Positions 4,351 to 44,871 of a stretch of 64,000 bases of DNA are shown in pieces; the first letter of the stretch is position 1; every line of letters starts with the position of its first letter. This stretch comes from Halorubrum coriense DSM 10284 (lineage in GTDB: Archaea; Halobacteriota; Halobacteria; Halobacteriales; Haloferacaceae): contig NZ_AOJL01000060.1 of assembly GCF_000337035.1 (NCBI RefSeq), forward strand, positions 159,410 to 223,409, in the 5' to 3' direction. The translations under genes were made by a program, and so were the position numbers. The notes under the pieces are model-generated. The model was not told the origin of the DNA and ran no database searches. It saw only the letters and a program-made list of their open reading frames with translations.

Positions 4351-5069
4351 TTGTTGCCACCTCGTCCGGTGCGCTTGGATGCGATGTCACCGACCTTGCG
4401 TCCCGGCGGGGCGTCCCGCGAGACGGACTTCGGCTGGCCGGGGTGTTGGCGACCACCGCCACCGAAGGGGTGGTCGACGGCGTTCATCGCGACGCCGCGC
4501 ACGCGCGGGTATTTGGTGCCGCGCGCTTTCATCTTGTGGTGCTTGTTGCCGGCCTTGACGAAGGGCTTCTCCGTCCGGCCGCCGCCCGCGACCACGCCGA
4601 TCGTGGCGCGGCACTGGGGGTCGAGTCGCTTCACTTCGCCGCTGGGGAGCTGGACGACCGCGACGTCGCGGTCGTGGGTGAGGAGCGTCGCCGACACGCC
4701 GGAGGCGCGCGCGAACTTCCCGCCGTCCCCGCGGTTGCTCTCGACGTTACAGACCGGGACGCCCTCGGGGATCTCCGCCAGCGGGAGCGTGTTGCCCGGC
4801 TTGATCTCCGCCGAGACGCCGACTTGGATCGTCTCGCCCACGCGCACGCCTTCCGGCGCGAGCACGAGCCGACGGTCGTCGTCCTCGAACTCGACTTCCG
4901 CGAGGGGAGCCGAGCGGGCGGGGTCGTGTTCGATCCCGACGATCTCGCCGGTGATCGTGTCCACGTCTTCGAGCTTCTTGTGCGACAGTTCCGCCTTGTA
5001 ACGGTGGGAGGGGGCCCGGAACGTCGGGCCGCCGCGTCCGCGCCGTTGTCCTTGGATTCGTCGTCCCAT
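4347..5069 (-). CDS. rpl2: 50S ribosomal protein L2
   Basis: 240-aa uL2, a core 23S-binding protein needed for peptidyl-transferase centre assembly. The N-terminus is [20 protein letters not shown]; the C-terminal hallmark [17 protein letters not shown], at about residues 192-208, includes the conserved His of the peptidyl-transferase region. Its length matches other archaeal L2. It lies 1 bp after L23. Confidence 0.98.
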
Positions 5070-5070
5070 C

Positions 5071-5325
5071 TCAGAACACCCCGATGCGCGAGGCGATTTC
5101 GGTCGCGTCGTCGTCTTCGGACAGGGTGACGATCGCCTTCTTCTCGCCCTGCGGCGTCACCTGCGTGTTCACGTCGACGACGCCCACGTCGTATCGCTCG
5201 GCGACCTCGGAGCGGATCTCCGGTTTGGCCGCGTCGACGTCGACGAGGAACAGCAGCTTGTTGTTGAAGTCCATCTCGTTCATCGCCTGCTCGGTGACGA
5301 TCGGATGCTCGATGATCGAGTTCAT
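5071..5325 (-). CDS. rpl23: 50S ribosomal protein L23
   Basis: 84-aa uL23 at the tunnel exit, docking site for SRP and secretion factors. It has the usual archaeal short length with IIEHPIVTEQAMNEMDFNNKLLFLVD and the C-terminal TPQGEKKAIVTLSED. The reading frame continues far upstream as an artefact of high GC; the ATG at 5325 is fixed by the ATGA overlap with the L4 stop and the family N-terminus. Confidence 0.97.
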   Translation of the reverse strand: MNSIIEHPIVTEQAMNEMDFNNKLLFLVDVDAAKPEIRSEVAERYDVGVVDVNTQVTPQGEKKAIVTLSEDDDATEIASRIGVF

Positions 5326-6068
5326 CGGTCGGCCACCTCGGCGACGGCGCTCTCGGTCCACAGCGTGAGTCGGCCCGGGTGCGCGCCGGGCGCGAGGTCC
5401 TCCGCGTTGACCTCGCGAGCGGTCGCGACGTCGACGCCCGCGAGGTTGCGGGCGGCGCGGGACGGCTCCTCGCTGGTGACGACGAGGACGGACTTGGGCT
5501 GGCGGTACTTGCGGCCGCGGGCCTTGCCCTGTCCGGCGCGGACGGAGCGGCCCTCCTCGGCGCGCTCGATGTCGGCGTCGGCGCCGACCGCTTCGAGCAC
5601 GCCCAGAGCGTCCTGCGTCTTGTCGAGGTCCTCGAACTCGTCGCTCACGACGAGCGGGAGGTCGAGGGCCTCGTCGAACGCGTGGCCGCGCTCGGCGACG
5701 AGCTCGGCCTCGGTCGTGGCCGCGATGGCCGACTGGATCGCGAGCTGTCGCTCCTTGTCGTTCAGTTTCTTCGTCTGGTCCTTCTCGGCCTTCGGCGGGT
5801 GCGCGGCGCGGCCCGACACGGCGTGCGGGACGCGACGGGCGACGTTCTCGGAACGTGGCACGTGCGCGAGCCCGCGGCCGGAGCCGAACGACTCGGCGGG
5901 CGTCCGCAGCCCGGCGAACTCGTCGGCCCCGTAGGCCTGCTTCCGGTTGGCCTGAGCGGCGTCGACCGCGCGACCGATGAGGTCCGGTCGGAACGCGGTC
6001 TCGAAGACGGCCGGCAGCTCGACGCTGCCCGCCTCCTCGCCGTCCAGGTCGTGTACTGTTGCGTTCAT
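5322..6068 (-). CDS. rpl4: 50S ribosomal protein L4
   Basis: 248-aa uL4 (eukaryotic L4/L1 type) whose long loop reaches the exit tunnel. Recognisable elements are FRPDLIGRAVDAAQANRKQAYGAD near residues 26-49, GSGRGLAHVPR, and a C-terminal half with RAGQGKARGRKYRQPKS. It is flanked by L3 (3-bp gap) and L23 (4-bp overlap). Confidence 0.97.
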   Translation of the reverse strand: MNATVHDLDGEEAGSVELPAVFETAFRPDLIGRAVDAAQANRKQAYGADEFAGLRTPAESFGSGRGLAHVPRSENVARRVPHAVSGRAAHPPKAEKDQTKKLNDKERQLAIQSAIAATTEAELVAERGHAFDEALDLPLVVSDEFEDLDKTQDALGVLEAVGADADIERAEEGRSVRAGQGKARGRKYRQPKSVLVVTSEEPSRAARNLAGVDVATAREVNAEDLAPGAHPGRLTLWTESAVAEVADR

Positions 6069-6071
6069 TGG

Positions 6072-7088
6072 TTATCCCTGGTTGGATTCGGTGGAAACGT
6101 ACCGGACCTCGGGGTCGAGGCGCGGCTGGTCGTTCGGCCGGATGGCCGGGCGGAACCGCAGCAGGCGCTGGTCCGGACCGGGCAGCGAGCCCTTGATGAG
6201 CGCGTACTCGCCGTCGACCTCGCCGTAGTTGACGAAGCCGCCGTCGACGGAGGCGTCGTCGCCCTCGCCGAAGTCGATGAGGCGCTTGTTGAGCTCGGTG
6301 CGCTGGTGGTAGCCGGTCTGCCCCTGCTGGGGGACGGTGGAGCGGACGCGGGAGGGGTTCCACGGACCGAGGTTCCCGATCCGACGCCGCCATCCCTGAC
6401 GGGCGTGTTTGCCCTTCCGCTTCTGAACGCCCCAGCGCTTGACGGGACCCTGCGTCCCCTTCCCCTTCGTGATGCCGGAGACGTCGGTGTACTGGCCCGC
6501 GCGGAAGACGTCGCCGAACTCGTGAGCGCCGCCCTCGGCGACGAGGTCCAGCGCGAAGTCGACGCGCTCCTCGAGGGAGCCGCCGCCGACGCGCGTTTCC
6601 ATGACGTCCGGCTTCTTCTTCGGGACGTTGGAGAGGTCCGAGGGGGCCGTGTGCGTGATGACGCGCACGTCGTCGACGACGTCGTCGTCGAGCAGCGCGC
6701 GGAGTTCGTCGGCGTCCGCCTCGAATGTTTCCTCGGCCGGGAGGTCGAGCGCGCGGTCGAGCTCCTCGTGGAACTCGGTCGCCCAGACCTCTTCGACCGG
6801 CTTCTGTCCGTACGGCGTGTTCTCGTAGGCGCGCACGGCGACGGCGTACATCTGCGGCGTCTCGACGACGGTGACGGGGACGGCCTCTTCCATCCCTTCA
6901 CGCGGCGAGTTCGCCTCGTCGTTGACCATCATGACGTGGGTCATCCCGGCCTTGTAGCCGGCGAATCCCTGCAGCGCAGGGGCCCCATCGTCTTCTGGCC
7001 ACGAACGGATGCGCGGCACCTCGCTCTCTGCGCGGGTGCGCGGGCCGTAGCCCAGCGAGCCTTTTCGTGGTCGGCTTGGTTGTGGCAT
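6072..7088 (-). CDS. rpl3: 50S ribosomal protein L3
   Basis: 338-aa uL3 (archaeal/eukaryotic type) with the N-terminus MPQPSRPRKGSLGYGPRTRA, GFAGYKAGMTHVMMV near residues 43-57, the conserved stretch GITKGKGTQGPVKRWGVQKRKGKHAR, and the HQRTELNKRLI segment. The frame is open for 69 bp upstream, but that part overlaps the preceding gene and is not L3-like, so the ATG at 7088 is used. It starts 4 bp after the SPOUT methyltransferase stop. Confidence 0.97.
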   Translation of the reverse strand: MPQPSRPRKGSLGYGPRTRAESEVPRIRSWPEDDGAPALQGFAGYKAGMTHVMMVNDEANSPREGMEEAVPVTVVETPQMYAVAVRAYENTPYGQKPVEEVWATEFHEELDRALDLPAEETFEADADELRALLDDDVVDDVRVITHTAPSDLSNVPKKKPDVMETRVGGGSLEERVDFALDLVAEGGAHEFGDVFRAGQYTDVSGITKGKGTQGPVKRWGVQKRKGKHARQGWRRRIGNLGPWNPSRVRSTVPQQGQTGYHQRTELNKRLIDFGEGDDASVDGGFVNYGEVDGEYALIKGSLPGPDQRLLRFRPAIRPNDQPRLDPEVRYVSTESNQG

Positions 7089-7092
7089 GTGT

Positions 7093-7959
7093 TTACTCCG
7101 TGAGTGTGAGCGAGCCGAGGGTCGCGAACAGAGCCTCCTCCGTCCGGACGACCTCACTCGCCTGTGCCGGGATCGTGTTCAGCCAGAGGTCGAACCCCGG
7201 ATCGGGTTCGACCGGACGGCCGTCGGCGACGGCCGACCGAATGCGGTCGGGCGAAAGCCCGAGCATCTCCGGAAGCCCCCGCTCGGGCGCGCCGAAGGCG
7301 ACGGTGTAACCGCCGGCCTCGCGGGCGTCCGAGACGAGGTCGCCGAGCCGCGAGACGGAGAGTTCCCCTCCGTGTCGCGACGTCGCGACGGCCAGTCCGT
7401 CGCCGGCGAGCGCTTCCGACAGGTCCGCGGCCGCGACCTGGAAACCGACCTCCGGCTTCCCGGTGATGCGGGCGCGGACCGGTTCTCTCGAAGAGACCCT
7501 GATGGTGACGCGCTCCCCCCGCACGACCTCCATTCCGGAGGGGACGAGCAGGGAGATCGGGTGTTCCCGCAGCGGGGAATTGACCCGGACGCGGCCTTCA
7601 GGTCCGACCTCGGTCACGAGTCCCTGTGTTTTCGACTCTTCCCCGCTAGGGGTCGAGCCGGTCCGCCACGGCACGCGGAGCGGGGGGAGCACACCGACGT
7701 ACCGGAGTTCGTCGCGTTGCCCCCAGAGGTCCTTTCGGAGCTCCGGCGGCGTCGCGGCGTACCCCAGCACGGTGCGGACGTACTCCCCGCCCCGTCGCCC
7801 GTCGCCTTCCCGGTCAGGGAAGACCACGAGCCGATCCGCCCGGAACACCGCCGCCGCACGGGCGACGTAGCCGAGTTTGCGAGTCGCCTCGCGGTCGTCC
7901 TCGGCTTCCCGGACGAGCGAAGACGGAACACAGATCGTGAGTCCGTCTTCGGTACGCAT
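7093..7959 (-). CDS. Putative SPOUT-type RNA (uridine N3) methyltransferase
   Basis: 288-aa protein of the COG2106-type SPOUT superfamily (relatives of human SPOUT1/CENP-32), predicted to methylate rRNA uridine with S-adenosylmethionine. Seen here: an N-terminal strand/helix unit (TICVPSSLVREAED...GYVARAAAVFRADRLVVFPD), a middle OB-like part with VTEVGPEGRVRVNSPL near residues 150-165, and the knot region GYTVAFGAPERGLPEMLGLS near residues 233-252, typical of the trefoil-knot cofactor site. It is the first gene of the L3 ribosomal operon, a position conserved in haloarchaea. The frame is open further upstream; the ATG at 7959 matches the family and lies behind a TATA-like element. Confidence 0.88.
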   Translation of the reverse strand: MRTEDGLTICVPSSLVREAEDDREATRKLGYVARAAAVFRADRLVVFPDREGDGRRGGEYVRTVLGYAATPPELRKDLWGQRDELRYVGVLPPLRVPWRTGSTPSGEESKTQGLVTEVGPEGRVRVNSPLREHPISLLVPSGMEVVRGERVTIRVSSREPVRARITGKPEVGFQVAAADLSEALAGDGLAVATSRHGGELSVSRLGDLVSDAREAGGYTVAFGAPERGLPEMLGLSPDRIRSAVADGRPVEPDPGFDLWLNTIPAQASEVVRTEEALFATLGSLTLTE

Positions 7960-7995
7960 CGTGGCGAGACTGTACACCTCGATTCCGGACGCCAC

Positions 7996-8006
7996 CGTAA
8001 AAGGAT
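7996..8006 (-). promoter_or_regulatory. TATA-like box for the ribosomal operon
   Basis: On the minus strand CCTTTTACGG is centred about 42 bp upstream of the SPOUT gene ATG, predicting transcription start near 7975 and a short leader. No comparable element is seen inside the tightly packed operon down to S4e, so this is the likely main visible promoter of the ribosomal run. Confidence 0.5.
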
Positions 8007-8118
8007 AGCGGTCCCGATATCCGGCTGTGCCGCGTTCACACGGTGTTTTCCGGGGGATTCGGCCCGCGGCTCCGAGCCAACACGTCACACGGATCGGCGC
8101 TGCCGCGGACCCGCCCCC

Positions 8119-9381
8119 TCACGCCGGGACGATCCGCGCGACCGGCGCGTCGGCGTCGTCGACGGCGGCGTAGAGGTGTCCCGTGTCCGGTTCGACCGCG
8201 ACCGCGCGCATGCGCCACCCCCGGTCGGCGAGCAGCGGCTCCCGCTCGGTGACGGTCGCGTCGAGACCGGTCCCGTCGACCGCGAACCGGCCGAGGTACT
8301 GCGCGGCGAGCGTGCCGGCGAACAGGTCGCCCCGCCACTCGGGGAACGCGTCGCCGTCGTAGAAGACCGCGCCGCTCGGCGGGAAGCCGCCGGAGCCGCA
8401 CGGCCAGAAGTGGACCGGCGCGATCACGCCGTCGCGCTCGCCGTGGGCCGGCGCGAAGGGGTCGTCGGTCCCGTAGCGGCACGCCTCGCTGGCGACCGGC
8501 CACCCGTAGTTCCCGCCGCGCTCGACGACGTTGATCTCGTCGCCGTCCTCCTCGCCGTGCTCGCACTGCCAGATCCGGCCCGTCTCGGGCCGCACCGCCA
8601 TCGCCTGCGGGTTCCGGTGCCCGTAGCTGTACAGCGCGTCCGCGGCGTCCGGGTCGTCGACGAACGGGTTGTCCGGGTGGGGGTCGCCGTCCGACGTCAG
8701 TCGCAGCGTCGCACCGAGTTCGGTCGACCGGTCCTGCGAGACGTGGTCGGGTCCGAAGTCCGTGTCGCGCCGGTCACCGACCGTGACGTACAGCGACCCC
8801 TCGGGGCCGAACGTCGCCCGCGACCCGAAGTGGTTCGAGCCGCCGCGGAACGGCTCGGCGACGCGGATCGGTTCGAACCCGGCTAACCCCGGCGCGTCGT
8901 CGCCGTCGAGCGAGAGCCGGCCGGCCCCGACGTGCGTCGTCGCCTCGCCCGCGTCGTTCGTCGCCGCGTACGTGAGATAGACGCGCGGGTCGTCCGGGTA
9001 GTCCGGATGGAGGGCGACGTCGAGCAGGCCGCCCTGTCCCTCCGCGAACACCTCGGGCGCGCCCGCGACCACCTCGACGGTCCCGTCCGCGGGGTCGACG
9101 AGCGAGAGCCCGCCCGTCCGCTCGGTGATCAGCAGGCGGCCGTCGTCGGGGAGAAAGGCGAGCCCCCACGGGTTCTCGAACCCCGTCGCGACGGTCTCGA
9201 CGTCGTACGCGACGTCCGCGCCGTCGTCCGGCGGGGCGTCGTCGTCGTCGGAGCCGTCGGTACCGTCGCTGCCGGAGTCGCCGAGGCAGCCGGAGAGCGC
9301 CGGGAGGGTGGTCGCTCCGGCGAGGCCGCCGGCCGCGCGGAGGGCGGTGCGTCTGTCGATTCGATCGAGACCGTCCGTCAT
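8119..9381 (-). CDS. PQQ-dependent sugar dehydrogenase-like lipoprotein (sGDH beta-propeller)
   Basis: 420-aa exported six-bladed beta-propeller of the soluble glucose/aldose sugar dehydrogenase family. The N-terminus carries a twin-arginine signal (DRRTALRAAGGLAGA) followed by a lipobox LSGC at about residues 29-32, then an acidic Asp/Ser linker, so a Tat-exported lipid-anchored protein is expected. Family motifs: ATGFENPWGLAFLPDDGRLLITER, LLDVALHPDYPDDPRVYLTY, LYVTVGDRRD, YSYGHRNPQAMAVRPETGRIWQCEHG and EINVVERGGNYGWP. PQQ is the family cofactor, but haloarchaeal homologues have not all been shown to use it and the substrate cannot be read from sequence. It stands alone, divergent from tRNA-Gly. 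Confidence 0.9.
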   Translation of the reverse strand: MTDGLDRIDRRTALRAAGGLAGATTLPALSGCLGDSGSDGTDGSDDDDAPPDDGADVAYDVETVATGFENPWGLAFLPDDGRLLITERTGGLSLVDPADGTVEVVAGAPEVFAEGQGGLLDVALHPDYPDDPRVYLTYAATNDAGEATTHVGAGRLSLDGDDAPGLAGFEPIRVAEPFRGGSNHFGSRATFGPEGSLYVTVGDRRDTDFGPDHVSQDRSTELGATLRLTSDGDPHPDNPFVDDPDAADALYSYGHRNPQAMAVRPETGRIWQCEHGEEDGDEINVVERGGNYGWPVASEACRYGTDDPFAPAHGERDGVIAPVHFWPCGSGGFPPSGAVFYDGDAFPEWRGDLFAGTLAAQYLGRFAVDGTGLDATVTEREPLLADRGWRMRAVAVEPDTGHLYAAVDDADAPVARIVPA

Positions 9382-41355: not shown

Positions 41356-42516
41356 ATGAGCGAGTTCGACATCGTCGACGCGGCCGCGATCCGGGACGGC
41401 CGCGCGACCGACGCGTACTTCGAGCGGACCGAGGCGGCGCTGGAGGCGGCGGACCGGAACCCCCGCGTCGTCGCCGAGGTGACCGCGGACCAGTTCCCGG
41501 ACGGGGAGTTCGAGGTGTTCGCCGGGCTCGGCGACGCCGTCGAACTGCTCGCCGGCCGCGACGTCGACGTGGACGCGGTCCCGGAGGGCCACCTGTTCGA
41601 CGGCGGCCCGGTGATGCGGATCGAGGGGCCGTACCTCGCGTTCGCGCGGCTCGAGACGTCGCTGCTCGGCTTCGTCTCGCACGCGTCGGGGATGGCGACG
41701 GCGGCGCTCGACTGCCGGGTCGCCGCGCCGGAGTCGCAGATCCTCTCGTTCGGCGCGCGCCACGTCCACCCCGCGATAGCCGCGGCGGTCGAGCGGTCGG
41801 CGCTCGTCGGCGGGTTCGACGGCTTCTCGCACGTCGCCGCCGGCGAACTGCTCGGGCGCGAGGCGTCCGGGACGATGCCCCACGCGCTCGCCATCTGCTT
41901 CGGCCGCGGCGAGCAGGAGGCCGCGTGGCGCGCCTACGACGAGGGCGTGCCGGCGGACGCGCCCCGGATCGCGCTGTGTGACACCTACTCCGACGAGGTC
42001 GACGAGGTGCTGCGGGCCGCGGAGACGCTCGGCGACGACCTCGACGGCGTCCGCCTCGACACGACCGGCTCCCGTCGCGGCGACTTCCGCCACATCGTTC
42101 GCGAGGTCCGGTGGGAGCTCGACGTCCGCGGCCACGGCGACGTCGACGTGTACGCCTCCGGCGGGCTCGGTCCCGCGGACCTCCGAGAGCTGCGCGACGT
42201 CGTCGACGGGTTCGGCGTCGGCGGATACGTCTCCAACGCGGACCCGGTCGACTTCGCGCTCGACATCGTCGAAGTGGACGGCGAGCCGGCCGCCAAGCGG
42301 GGGAAGCTCTCGGGCGCGAAGTCGGTCTACCGCACCGCCGATGGGGGCCACGCGGTCGGGCTCGCGGACCGCTCGGGGCCGGCGGGCGCGGAGTCGCTCA
42401 TGGAGCCCGTGATCCGCGGCGGCGAGGTCGTCGACGGCGACGCGGGCGACCTGTCGGCGGCGGCGGAGCGGGCGCTCGCGGACGCGGAGGCGGCGGAGTA
42501 CGGGAGCGATCGGTAG
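41356..42516 (+). CDS. Nicotinate phosphoribosyltransferase
   Basis: 386-aa type II phosphoribosyltransferase of NAD salvage (nicotinate + PRPP to NaMN). Family segments: VAEVTADQFPDGEFEVFAGL, FARLETSLLGFVSHASGMATAA, GARHVHPAIA, ALCDTYSDEVDE, GVRLDTTGSRRGDF and VYASGGLGPADLRELRD, as in the archaeal short NAPRTase/QPRTase-like clade. With the isochorismatase-family gene it would complete nicotinamide salvage. Confidence 0.92.
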   Translation: MSEFDIVDAAAIRDGRATDAYFERTEAALEAADRNPRVVAEVTADQFPDGEFEVFAGLGDAVELLAGRDVDVDAVPEGHLFDGGPVMRIEGPYLAFARLETSLLGFVSHASGMATAALDCRVAAPESQILSFGARHVHPAIAAAVERSALVGGFDGFSHVAAGELLGREASGTMPHALAICFGRGEQEAAWRAYDEGVPADAPRIALCDTYSDEVDEVLRAAETLGDDLDGVRLDTTGSRRGDFRHIVREVRWELDVRGHGDVDVYASGGLGPADLRELRDVVDGFGVGGYVSNADPVDFALDIVEVDGEPAAKRGKLSGAKSVYRTADGGHAVGLADRSGPAGAESLMEPVIRGGEVVDGDAGDLSAAAERALADAEAAEYGSDR

Positions 42517-42601: not shown

Positions 42602-42742
42602 TCACTCCGAGTCGGTCGCGGCGTCGTCGCTCGGCTCGTCGCCGCGGTCGTCGACGCGTTCGCCGTCCGGTTCGGAGAGGGCGAGACAGGCCCACGCCCA
42701 GCCGCGGGCCCGGACGCGGCGCGGCGAGTCGGACACGGTCAC
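42602..42742 (-). CDS. Possible 46-aa protein coupled to the DUF7260-like gene
   Basis: The frame starts with GTG, overlapping the stop of the upstream gene as GTGA. It encodes MTVSDSPRRVRARGWAWACL, a Trp-rich core, then an acidic tail (DDRGDEPSDDAATDSE). The overlap and halophile-like composition argue that it is real, but chance frames of this size are common at this GC content. Confidence 0.42.
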   Translation of the reverse strand: MTVSDSPRRVRARGWAWACLALSEPDGERVDDRGDEPSDDAATDSE

Positions 42743-43566
42743 GCCCTCCGGACGAGGTGGTCGCGGACCGCGCGCCCGCACTCGCGGAGCGTCTCGACGA
42801 GGCGCGTGACGGTCGAGAGGACGGGATGTGACACCGGGAAGTCGTCGTACAGGTACGCGACGGTCGACCGCTGCCGGAGCCCGACCGAGGCCCCGCGGCT
42901 CGCGGTGCGGTCGAGGTCGCTCTGCCGGTCCGCCAACAGCGTCTCGCAGGCCTCGATGCGTTCGCCGAGCGCCTCGTGGCGGCGGCGCAGGTCGTCGAAT
43001 CCGAGCGCCGAGAGCGGCGTCTCGTCCGCGGTCGACAGCCAGTCGGTGACCCCGTGGACCGTCTCGCCGGCCGACCGGAGCGACGCCGCCTCGCGCTCCA
43101 GAGTTCGGTCGAACACCGCGAGCTCCGCAAGCCGGTCGTCGACGGCGGACTCGACAGCGGACGCGACCGGCCGCGTGAAGTCGTGGTCCGTCTTCGGCGA
43201 GAGCGCGACGGCGACGGAGTCGCCGAGTTCCTCGCGGACCGTCGCGAGCAGCGGTTCGCCGCCGGAGCCGTCGGGCACGCTGTGAGGTCGCACCGTCTCG
43301 GCGAACGCCTCGCGGACGCGGCGGCAGCCGTCGGTCGACGACGCGTTCGCCCCGCCGGCGACCGCGCGAACGCCGCCGCCGACCGGTCCCGAGCCGGTCC
43401 CGGCGCCGAACCCGTTGCCGGCGCTTCCGCCGTCGCCCGCGGCGACGGTGGGAACCGACGCGACCGCCGACCGGAACCGCTCGTAGGCGCGCCGCTCGTC
43501 CGCGGTCGCGTCGCGCTCAGCGGCCACGCGGTCGCGGGCGCGGTCGACGTGCGTCTCGACGGTCAC
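42739..43566 (-). CDS. DUF7260-like haloarchaeal protein, iron-box controlled
   Basis: 275 aa, soluble and mostly helical: VDRARDRVAAERDATADERRAYERFRSAV at the N-terminus, a Gly-rich linker (about 43-72), then helical segments with ESAVDDRLAELAVFDRTLEREAASL and DLRRRHEALGERIEACETLLADRQSDLDR, suggesting coiled coils. The DUF7260 name is from memory. It starts with GTG coupled to the stop of an 18-aa leader frame. Two TTAGG-N4-CCTAA palindromes in the promoter imply control by a DtxR-type metal-dependent repressor. Function unknown; iron-limitation response is inferred. Confidence 0.7.
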   Translation of the reverse strand: MTVETHVDRARDRVAAERDATADERRAYERFRSAVASVPTVAAGDGGSAGNGFGAGTGSGPVGGGVRAVAGGANASSTDGCRRVREAFAETVRPHSVPDGSGGEPLLATVREELGDSVAVALSPKTDHDFTRPVASAVESAVDDRLAELAVFDRTLEREAASLRSAGETVHGVTDWLSTADETPLSALGFDDLRRRHEALGERIEACETLLADRQSDLDRTASRGASVGLRQRSTVAYLYDDFPVSHPVLSTVTRLVETLRECGRAVRDHLVRRA

Positions 43567-43619
43567 CGCGGATCACCGCCGTCGAAGCGCCAGACGCGTG
43601 CGTTGCCCGTGTTCGTCAT
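43563..43619 (-). CDS. 18-aa leader peptide frame upstream of the DUF7260-like gene
   Basis: ATG at 43619 encodes MTNTGNARVWRFDGGDPR and stops at 43563, with its TGA inside the GTGA start of the next gene. A CTTTTTGA box is centred about 27 bp before this ATG, the exact haloarchaeal leaderless spacing, so the transcript should begin at this codon. The peptide, or just its translation, may set up reinitiation at the GTG. Confidence 0.5.
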   Translation of the reverse strand: MTNTGNARVWRFDGGDPR

Positions 43620-43624
43620 AGGGA

Positions 43625-43674
43625 TTAGGCTAACCTAAAACATCAAAAAGCCACCGGTTTTTAGGACGGCCTAA
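43625..43674 (-). promoter_or_regulatory. Two DtxR/Idr-like iron boxes flanking the TATA element
   Basis: TTAGGCTAACCTAA (43625-43638) and TTAGGACGGCCTAA (43661-43674) are TTAGG-N4-CCTAA palindromes with centres 36 bp apart. Read on the minus strand, the first is TTAGGTTAGCCTAA, part of the classical DtxR consensus. The TATA-like CTTTTTGA (43643-43650) lies between them, so repressor bound at either box would block TBP/TFB or polymerase. Both serve the minus-strand operon ending at 42602. Confidence 0.78.
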
Positions 43675-43804
43675 GAAAACTGCGGGCCAGCGAGGTGTCG
43701 GAGAGCGGGCGCGAGCGGGACGGGCGGGGAGGCGGGAGAGCGGTGCCGCGGCTCGGCGGTGCGCGTCGAGCGGAAAGGAAGCGGTCCGCGAGGGGTCGGT
43801 CGGC

Positions 43805-44407
43805 CTACAGCTCTTCGACGGCGCCGCCGTCGGCGCGCTCTCGGAACACCTGTCCCTCGATGAGCGTCACCATCGTGTCCTCGTCCTGCCAAGCGGTCGG
43901 CGACAGCTTCGCCTTCCGGCAGGTGCGCGAGAGGAACTCCGCGCCGGACCAGCCGTTCTCGACCGGGACCGTCGGGTAGAGCCAGCCGTGGGCGTTACCG
44001 CTGTCGACGGCGACCCCGTGAGTGCCGATCCGGAGATCGTCGAGGGGGTCGTTCGTGAGGACGGTGTTCGAGACGACGAACACCGAGACGGTGATGTTGT
44101 CGAGCTCCTTCGGCTCGACCTCGGAGCCGCAGGAGTCGCCGGACGCCGCCTTGATCGCGGCCTCGACGATGGCGTGACCGAGCTGATCGGAGGTGTCCCA
44201 CGCGCCGGCGCAGCCGCGGAGACGGCCCCGACCCCGAGTCGACTGGAGGCGGACGAAGGCTCCGGTGCGAGCGTAGAACGCCTCTCGCATGCTTCCGGGC
44301 TGTTCGCGTTGCCCGTGTCGAACGAACGACTCCACCGCCTCCCGCGCGAGTTCGACCGCTCGTGCACCGTCGTCGTACGACAGCTGAACGGTCTGGGCCT
44401 CGGACAT
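43805..44407 (-). CDS. AMMECR1-domain protein (TIGR00296)
   Basis: 200-aa conserved archaeal/eukaryotic protein. It shows GAFVRLQSTRGRGRLRGCAG (the LRGCIG-type signature, about 50-69), VEPKELDNITVSVFVVSN, GTHGVAVDSGNAHGWLYPTVPVENGWSGAEFLSRTCRKA and PTAW. The molecular function is unknown; the conserved Cys and strands suggest catalysis. It is divergent from the RNase P RNA gene. Confidence 0.92.
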   Translation of the reverse strand: MSEAQTVQLSYDDGARAVELAREAVESFVRHGQREQPGSMREAFYARTGAFVRLQSTRGRGRLRGCAGAWDTSDQLGHAIVEAAIKAASGDSCGSEVEPKELDNITVSVFVVSNTVLTNDPLDDLRIGTHGVAVDSGNAHGWLYPTVPVENGWSGAEFLSRTCRKAKLSPTAWQDEDTMVTLIEGQVFRERADGGAVEEL

Positions 44408-44530: not shown

Positions 44531-44871
44531 GGACCGGACAGAGGGAGCCCGACTCCCGTGCCTCTGGCATGAGGAAAGTCCCCCCACCGGCCGGACAGGC
44601 GACCGGGCACACGCCCGGAGTCGGAGACGGCTGGCTCTGGAACAGCAACGACACCCCCCGCCCCGACCGATGATCCGTGCGAACCGACCCGCAAGGGAAG
44701 GGAGTTAACCCGGAGAGGGTGCGTGGATTTCCCACGCCACGGACGGGCGGGAACGGATGGAACGGCGAATCCTCGCCGGTGCAAGTCCGCGCCACAAGGT
44801 AGTCCGGCCGCGGCGCGGACGCTCAGCCGAATGTCGGGACGAACCGAAGGGGGCTTACTCCCCTCAGTCCG
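44531..44871 (+). ncRNA. rnpB: RNase P RNA
   Basis: A roughly 340-nt type A archaeal RNase P RNA. Seen: GAGGAAAGTCC (44571-44581, CR-I), a GGCCGGACAGGCGACCGGGC-like cruciform region, AACGGCGAATCCTCGCCGGTGCAAGTC in the specificity-domain side, CCACAAGGTAG, and the 3' CGAACCGAAGGGGGCTTACT segment (CR-V). A stem formed by GGAC-A-GAGGG (44536-44545) and CCCTC-A-GTCC (44861-44870) would be P1. CTTATTCG at 44503-44510 is a fitting TATA element. Ends are estimated to within a few bases. Confidence 0.92.

Follow-up and report, generated by a model that had tools for sequence, protein, structure and literature searches.

The half-sites TTAGG and CCTAA are those of DtxR/IdeR boxes, and the bacterial iron box recognised by IdeR and DtxR is a 19-bp sequence, TTAGGTTAGSCTAACCTAA. 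In Haloferax volcanii, a ferR signal was reported before all fhu operons (PMC11349517). Leaderless transcripts account for 72% of the protein-coding transcripts of the same organism, and for HVO_B0198, one of its siderophore ABC genes, a 31-aa upstream frame was reported in the 5'-UTR (PMC4983044, Table 2). The present analysis concerns an operon of Halorubrum coriense DSM 10284 which encodes a protein of the DUF7260 family; it is contained in a stretch of 64,000 nucleotides, the whole of which is called the window. Judged from its sequence and from comparisons with related loci, this operon is very probably a member of a FerR/DtxR-type iron regulon with a twin-box operator architecture.

The twin-box promoter

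The features of promoter and operon are given below. Promoter positions are numbered on the minus (coding) strand, +1 being the A (43619) of the ATG that opens the mini-ORF.

43661-43674: distal iron box TTAGG-ACGG-CCTAA, TTAGGACGGCCTAA, exact, at -55 to -42
43641-43649, minus strand: TATA-like element TTTTTGATG (consensus reading), at -30 to -22, between the boxes
43625-43638: proximal iron box TTAGG-CTAA-CCTAA, TTAGGCTAACCTAA, exact, at -19 to -6, between TATA and predicted start
43563-43619, minus strand: mini-ORF of 18 codons, putatively leaderless, MTNTGNARVWRFDGGDPR; its ATG is the predicted transcription start, and its stop overlaps the DUF7260 start (GTGA)
43571-43577, minus strand: Shine-Dalgarno-like GGTGATC inside the mini-ORF, 4 nt before the DUF7260 GTG, exact in 6 of 7 orthologues
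42739-43566, minus strand: DUF7260 gene, 275 aa, GTG start, PF23921 with E 1.2e-72, iron-box clade
42602-42742, minus strand: frame of a 46-aa microprotein VTVSDSPRRVRARGWAWACLALSEPDGERVDDRGDEPSDDAATDSE, start overlapping the DUF7260 stop (GTGA)

Two exact TTAGG/CCTAA palindromes thus flank the TATA-like element, their starts being 36 bp apart; the element includes a TTTTTG stretch (43649-43644, minus strand, -30 to -25). An earlier note on this DNA had described twin TTAGG-N4-CCTAA boxes 36 bp apart with a TATA-like box between them, an 18-aa frame whose stop overlaps the GTG of DUF7260, and a GTGA overlap linking a 46-aa frame. This observation was correct in each detail (boxes, TATA-like element, both frames, DUF7260 gene); the 18-aa frame also recurs in relatives, and the 46-aa frame is moreover a conserved small protein there. 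No further TTAGG-N4-CCTAA was found in the 64-kb window, even with 1 mismatch allowed. Dinucleotide shuffles contained on average 0.12 boxes (≤1 mismatch) compared with the two of the window, a number which was reached in 0 of 100 shuffles. Since the upstream neighbour, an AMMECR1 gene (43805-44407, minus strand), is co-directional with the DUF7260 operon and the downstream neighbour, a gene of the QPRTase/nicotinate phosphoribosyltransferase family (41356-42516, plus strand), is convergent, the boxes would serve the DUF7260 operon alone. Just past the AMMECR1 gene, an archaeal RNase P RNA (RF00373, 179.7 bits) was noted at 44537-44869 of the plus strand.

Distribution of the iron box

The 3.6-Mb genome of H. 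coriense contains 14 copies of TTAGG-N4-CCTAA versus 1 copy of the reversed control pattern. Assignable boxes are situated mostly 5' of siderophore/Fe3+ ABC transporter genes and their neighbours, and iron acquisition genes at loci L001, L002, L004 and L005 are fronted by the same operator as the DUF7260 operon. The following targets were recorded:

L004, 4822: Peripla_BP_2 siderophore-binding lipoprotein
L005, 9334: Peripla_BP_2 siderophore-binding lipoprotein
L005, 4878: another lipoprotein
L002: ABC ATPase
L001, 7077: extracellular solute-binding protein
L001, 4692: LPG_synthase_TM protein

FAD or GMC oxidoreductases are also among the genes preceded by a box, and a DUF7552-DUF7551 gene adjoins siderophore genes. 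As in the window, the first ATG often follows the start of the other genomic boxes at a distance of 17-19 nt. DtxR-family regulators are encoded in the genome (six PF01325 matches over cut-off); no autoregulatory box was present within 1.5 kb of its DtxR genes.

Other boxes of this genome have less expected surroundings. At L001 13773-13786 a box lies 19 nt before the ATG of a Gluconate_2-dh3 subunit frame, which is followed by a GMC oxidoreductase, and these two are candidates for unexpected members of the iron regulon. The box at L003 4633-4646 fronts a minus-strand frame with a small acidic protein, which by eye resembles amphi-Trp domain proteins. A second iron operon (L004, ~4800-8300) consists of a box, a siderophore-binding protein, an FAD oxidoreductase, DUF7551/7552 and DUF7260; the DUF7551 match contains TAG and TAA, the DUF7260 is split over two frames, and this copy appears to be decayed.

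Within the genus, box pairs with a gap of 20-24 were detected in 36 of 52 genomes (1-4 per genome), the reversed control in 0 of 52. Of 46 close pairs of boxes, 29 have a spacing of 36, and an A/T-rich element is found at the same place inside the box pairs of relatives. The DUF7260 gene of the window has an orthologue in only 7 of the 52 genomes, H. coriense included, and is therefore an accessory gene; the other six orthologues are 75-87% identical. Relatives named by a contig search with a single protein were Halorubrum ezzemoulense and H. tebenquichense. All seven orthologous loci possess an exact proximal box with varying N4 cores (TTAG, CTAG, CGGG, TTGG); an exact distal box is found in five and one with 1 mismatch in L042, whereas L037 (H. 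ezzemoulense) has lost it. Half-sites that stay constant while the cores change are characteristic of an operator that is bound. It is this comparison of sequences which demonstrates the boxes, their conservation and their geometry; the earlier note had made its case dependent on conservation of the palindromes in relatives, and the operator is kept in the orthologues.

The search for palindromes upstream of DUF7260 homologues comprised 143 collected genes, with 1.5 kb scanned before each (214 kb; ≤1 mismatch). Boxes preceded 42 of the genes, 76 boxes in total, compared with 0, 0, 0, 1, 1, 2 and 3 occurrences of seven control palindromes of the same kind in the same regions. In a tree constructed from 137 sequences, the genes that have a box or a DUF7551/7552 gene upstream, 52 in number, all belonged to one clade of 55 genes (SH-aLRT 100), and the remaining 82 members had neither. 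Three members of this iron clade, L017 among them, are without box or DUF7551/7552 neighbour.

On plasmids of Halobellus, Halobaculum and Halostagnicola, iron-clade DUF7260 genes are found within iron-siderophore ABC operons; in the L066 plasmid, three ABC substrate-binding and two FAD oxidoreductase genes are followed by DUF7260 and then by a DtxR gene. DtxR-family genes adjoin iron-clade DUF7260 in Haloferax, Halobaculum, Haladaptatus and Halostagnicola, and PF01325 was confirmed for these genes in five of five plasmid records. Siderophore ABC genes and FAD oxidoreductases are the commonest neighbours across genera, and comparison of the loci demonstrates an association with siderophore operons throughout the clade. 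A scan of IMG/VR yielded no relative.

A chance origin of functionless palindromes, in favour of which no point was found, is ruled out for practical purposes by the enrichment, the conserved half-sites with variable cores and the fixed 36-bp spacing. It is also improbable that the palindromes are read by a transcription factor that does not belong to the DtxR family, with an indirect link to iron. The attribution of the motif to DtxR, Idr or FerR does come from the literature and from gene context, but half-sites of TTAGG and CCTAA are established as DtxR/IdeR type, DtxR-family genes adjoin DUF7260 in the five plasmid records, and the genes under the box are siderophore uptake genes. Control of the iron type by a TTAGG/CCTAA repressor, as proposed in the earlier note, is strongly supported by comparison, with conserved boxes and the same geometry before siderophore transporters in this genome and in other haloarchaea. 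From its half-sites and the shared targets and gene context, the box of the window would appear to be the ferR signal of Leyn and Rodionov 2015.

Mini-ORF, microprotein and DUF7260 protein

Transcription is predicted to start at the ATG of the mini-ORF. Of 40 distinct loci, 37 have an ATG 18-20 nt downstream of the proximal box start (27 of them at exactly 19 nt), and an ATG is hardly ever seen at another offset. At some loci this ATG serves as the start codon of DUF7260 itself or of a transporter gene. At many it begins a frame of 14-97 codons, and the stop of this frame in most cases overlaps the following start or comes shortly before it. The seven orthologues have kept position, length (17-18) and overlap of the mini-ORF with DUF7260, its peptide sequence not being conserved; comparison in this way recovers the small frame in front of DUF7260, as it does the one behind it (see below). 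Between lineages the peptides are unrelated. Within the genus, codons 2-12 have 8, 8 and 6 variable columns of 11 at the three codon positions, with 91 nonsynonymous versus 29 synonymous single differences, and only the last codons, which hold the Shine-Dalgarno-like GGTGATC, are conserved.

In many lineages the start codon recurs at this position and the stop again adjoins the following gene, which might point to a regulatory leader peptide controlling DUF7260 translation by attenuation or nascent-peptide metal sensing, and the 31-aa frame before HVO_B0198 of Haloferax volcanii (PMC4983044, Table 2) could be regarded as a parallel. Such a peptide is quite unlikely, however, because codons 2-12 are free of coding constraint and vary about equally at all positions; a conserved leader sequence was not found between lineages, and conservation is confined to the Shine-Dalgarno-like end. 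Since the peptide varies while the placement of start and stop and the Shine-Dalgarno-like end are kept, the mini-ORF is best read as a ribosome landing site coupled to the next gene, and the 18-aa frame is probably positional architecture, not a functional peptide.

The 46-aa frame, judged by its homologues, is a conserved small protein. Behind DUF7260 in ~16 iron-clade loci, homologues share the core RRxRAxxWAWxYLxLFG and an acidic tail, and a profile search retrieved further copies that follow a DUF7551 gene or come directly after an iron box. A box was present within ~1.5 kb in 16 of 20 fetched microprotein loci, the weakest profile matches being uncertain and five of the loci also belonging to the profile seed. 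Some profile matches (L164, L165, L174, L175, L176) are located ≤~200 bp from an iron box, with no DUF7260 or DUF7551 hit; this suggests that stand-alone microproteins are members of the iron regulon, the weaker matches being uncertain.

The DUF7260 protein matches the PF23921 profile over its full length (244.7 bits, gathering cut-off 27). Its structure model, for which the prediction rested on 3 sequences only, consists of helices only (pLDDT 69.7), and Foldseek found no match for it at E < 1. Likeness to spectrin repeats (VIA-align Z 9.1, rmsd 4.1 over 183) and to PhoU-like proteins (Z 7.0, rmsd 3.9 over 130) was discarded, these scores being at the level expected of any helical bundle. A PDB sequence search gave no convincing relative and no solved structure, and DUF7260 was not mentioned in any of the papers searched. 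Clade-specific positions were defined by residues occurring in ≥85% of the iron clade and in about ≤5% outside; four of the 12 picked are His or Cys (H197, H232, C263, H270), H197 having 9% outside the clade and H232 being Gln in the window protein. C207 is also almost fixed in the iron clade. The binomial estimate for four of 12 is ~0.0006, with a background of 3.5% and cut-offs that were chosen after seeing the data. If helices 190-225 and 246-274 formed an antiparallel hairpin, H197/H270 and C207/C263 would be brought level, as a hypothetical metal site of H197, C207, C263 and H270.

A role in iron sparing or storage, which the earlier note had suggested as possible, is not supported as first choice, since the neighbours are mainly genes for siderophore-iron uptake, though in five of the seven orthologous loci (L012, L038, L039, L041, L042) the DUF7260 operon is directly followed by dpsA (ferritin family, PF00210), which is also situated near DUF7260 in Haladaptatus and Halostagnicola. 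At the downstream position, the window lacks dpsA, as does H. ezzemoulense. The dpsA neighbours are the reason for retaining storage as a rival: the boxes would be real DtxR-family operators, but instead of uptake the operon would serve iron storage, detoxification or sparing, possibly in response to Mn or oxidative stress. In line with this reading, the operon's orthologues in Halorubrum are located apart from transporter genes, and the clade-specific H197, C263 and H270 could bind metal. We consider this reading unlikely, as the commonest neighbours across genera are of the uptake type, no ferritin-like profile match was obtained for the DUF7260 protein, and repressor-type boxes beside a TATA element predict expression at low iron, contrary to storage. 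Accessory handling of siderophore iron is preferred as the biochemical role, albeit tentatively, its probability being not quite even.

Proposed mechanism and comparison with described systems

We infer repression by a DtxR protein, a response to iron, a leaderless start and translational coupling. The operon, in the order mini-ORF, DUF7260, microprotein, would be driven by a haloarchaeal operator-promoter of the DtxR family (FerR/Idr type). With sufficient iron, each palindrome (-55/-42 and -19/-6) would carry a metal-loaded repressor dimer, and the two dimers, bracketing BRE and TATA, would block TBP/TFB and polymerase. Under iron scarcity the boxes would be empty and the operon transcribed, with the RNA 5' end at or beside the mini-ORF AUG. 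Having loaded on this leaderless AUG and translated the 18 codons, ribosomes would move over to the GTG of DUF7260 that overlaps the stop, perhaps aided by the Shine-Dalgarno-like GGTGATC; the GTGA coupling would likewise carry translation on to the microprotein. Both proteins would then most likely be cytoplasmic accessory factors of ferri-siderophore uptake, for example in the release or hand-over of iron beside the FAD-dependent oxidoreductases of the same operons.

A more far-reaching proposal, which is possible but doubtful, is that DUF7552/7551, the DUF7260 of the iron clade and the microprotein of 45-60 aa with RRxRAxxWAWxYLxLFG constitute an unrecognised cytoplasmic iron-handling module, which would be induced by iron starvation and release or deliver siderophore iron, with DUF7260 holding metal via His197, Cys207, Cys263 and His270, and expression being launched from sequence-free leaderless mini-ORFs set by operator geometry. 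For the removal of iron from siderophores inside haloarchaeal cells, the DUF7260 branch, DUF7551/7552 and the microprotein are concrete candidates. Their occurrence in low-iron, siderophore-linked operons, which span several haloarchaeal families, is possibly the first functional context for them. The recurrent mini-ORF behind the iron box should also provide a clean system for studying translational coupling on leaderless archaeal mRNAs.

The DUF7260 operon would thus join a known regulon, to which it would bring two additions that seem to be undescribed: a microprotein that is conserved, and a sequence-free mini-ORF that recurs behind iron boxes. As in the haloarchaeal FerR/Idr/SirR/TroR (DtxR-family) regulon, in which TTAGG-N4-CCTAA lies over siderophore ABC promoters, the same geometry occurs in the window; unlike the targets of that regulon, DUF7260 and the microprotein are without a known role in iron metabolism. 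The bacterial IdeR/DtxR box has the same half-sites, whereas the palindrome of the window is 14 bp long, its N4 core is free, and a second copy is often found 36 bp away, on the other side of an archaeal TATA element. With the DUF7260 family (PF23921) the window protein shares the full-length match and the conserved residues E17, E113, E159, Q215, Y240 and P248; it differs in belonging to a distinct clade with F88, W176, H197, C263, R268 and H270 and in its iron-operon context, the other 82 sampled members being without boxes or DUF7551/7552 neighbours. Haloarchaeal upstream ORFs in 5'-UTRs (PMC4983044) are similarly short frames between promoter and main gene, one of them before a siderophore ABC gene; the mini-ORF is distinguished from them by beginning at the predicted transcription start, by a stop which overlaps the next start, and by its recurrence behind iron boxes with unrelated peptides.
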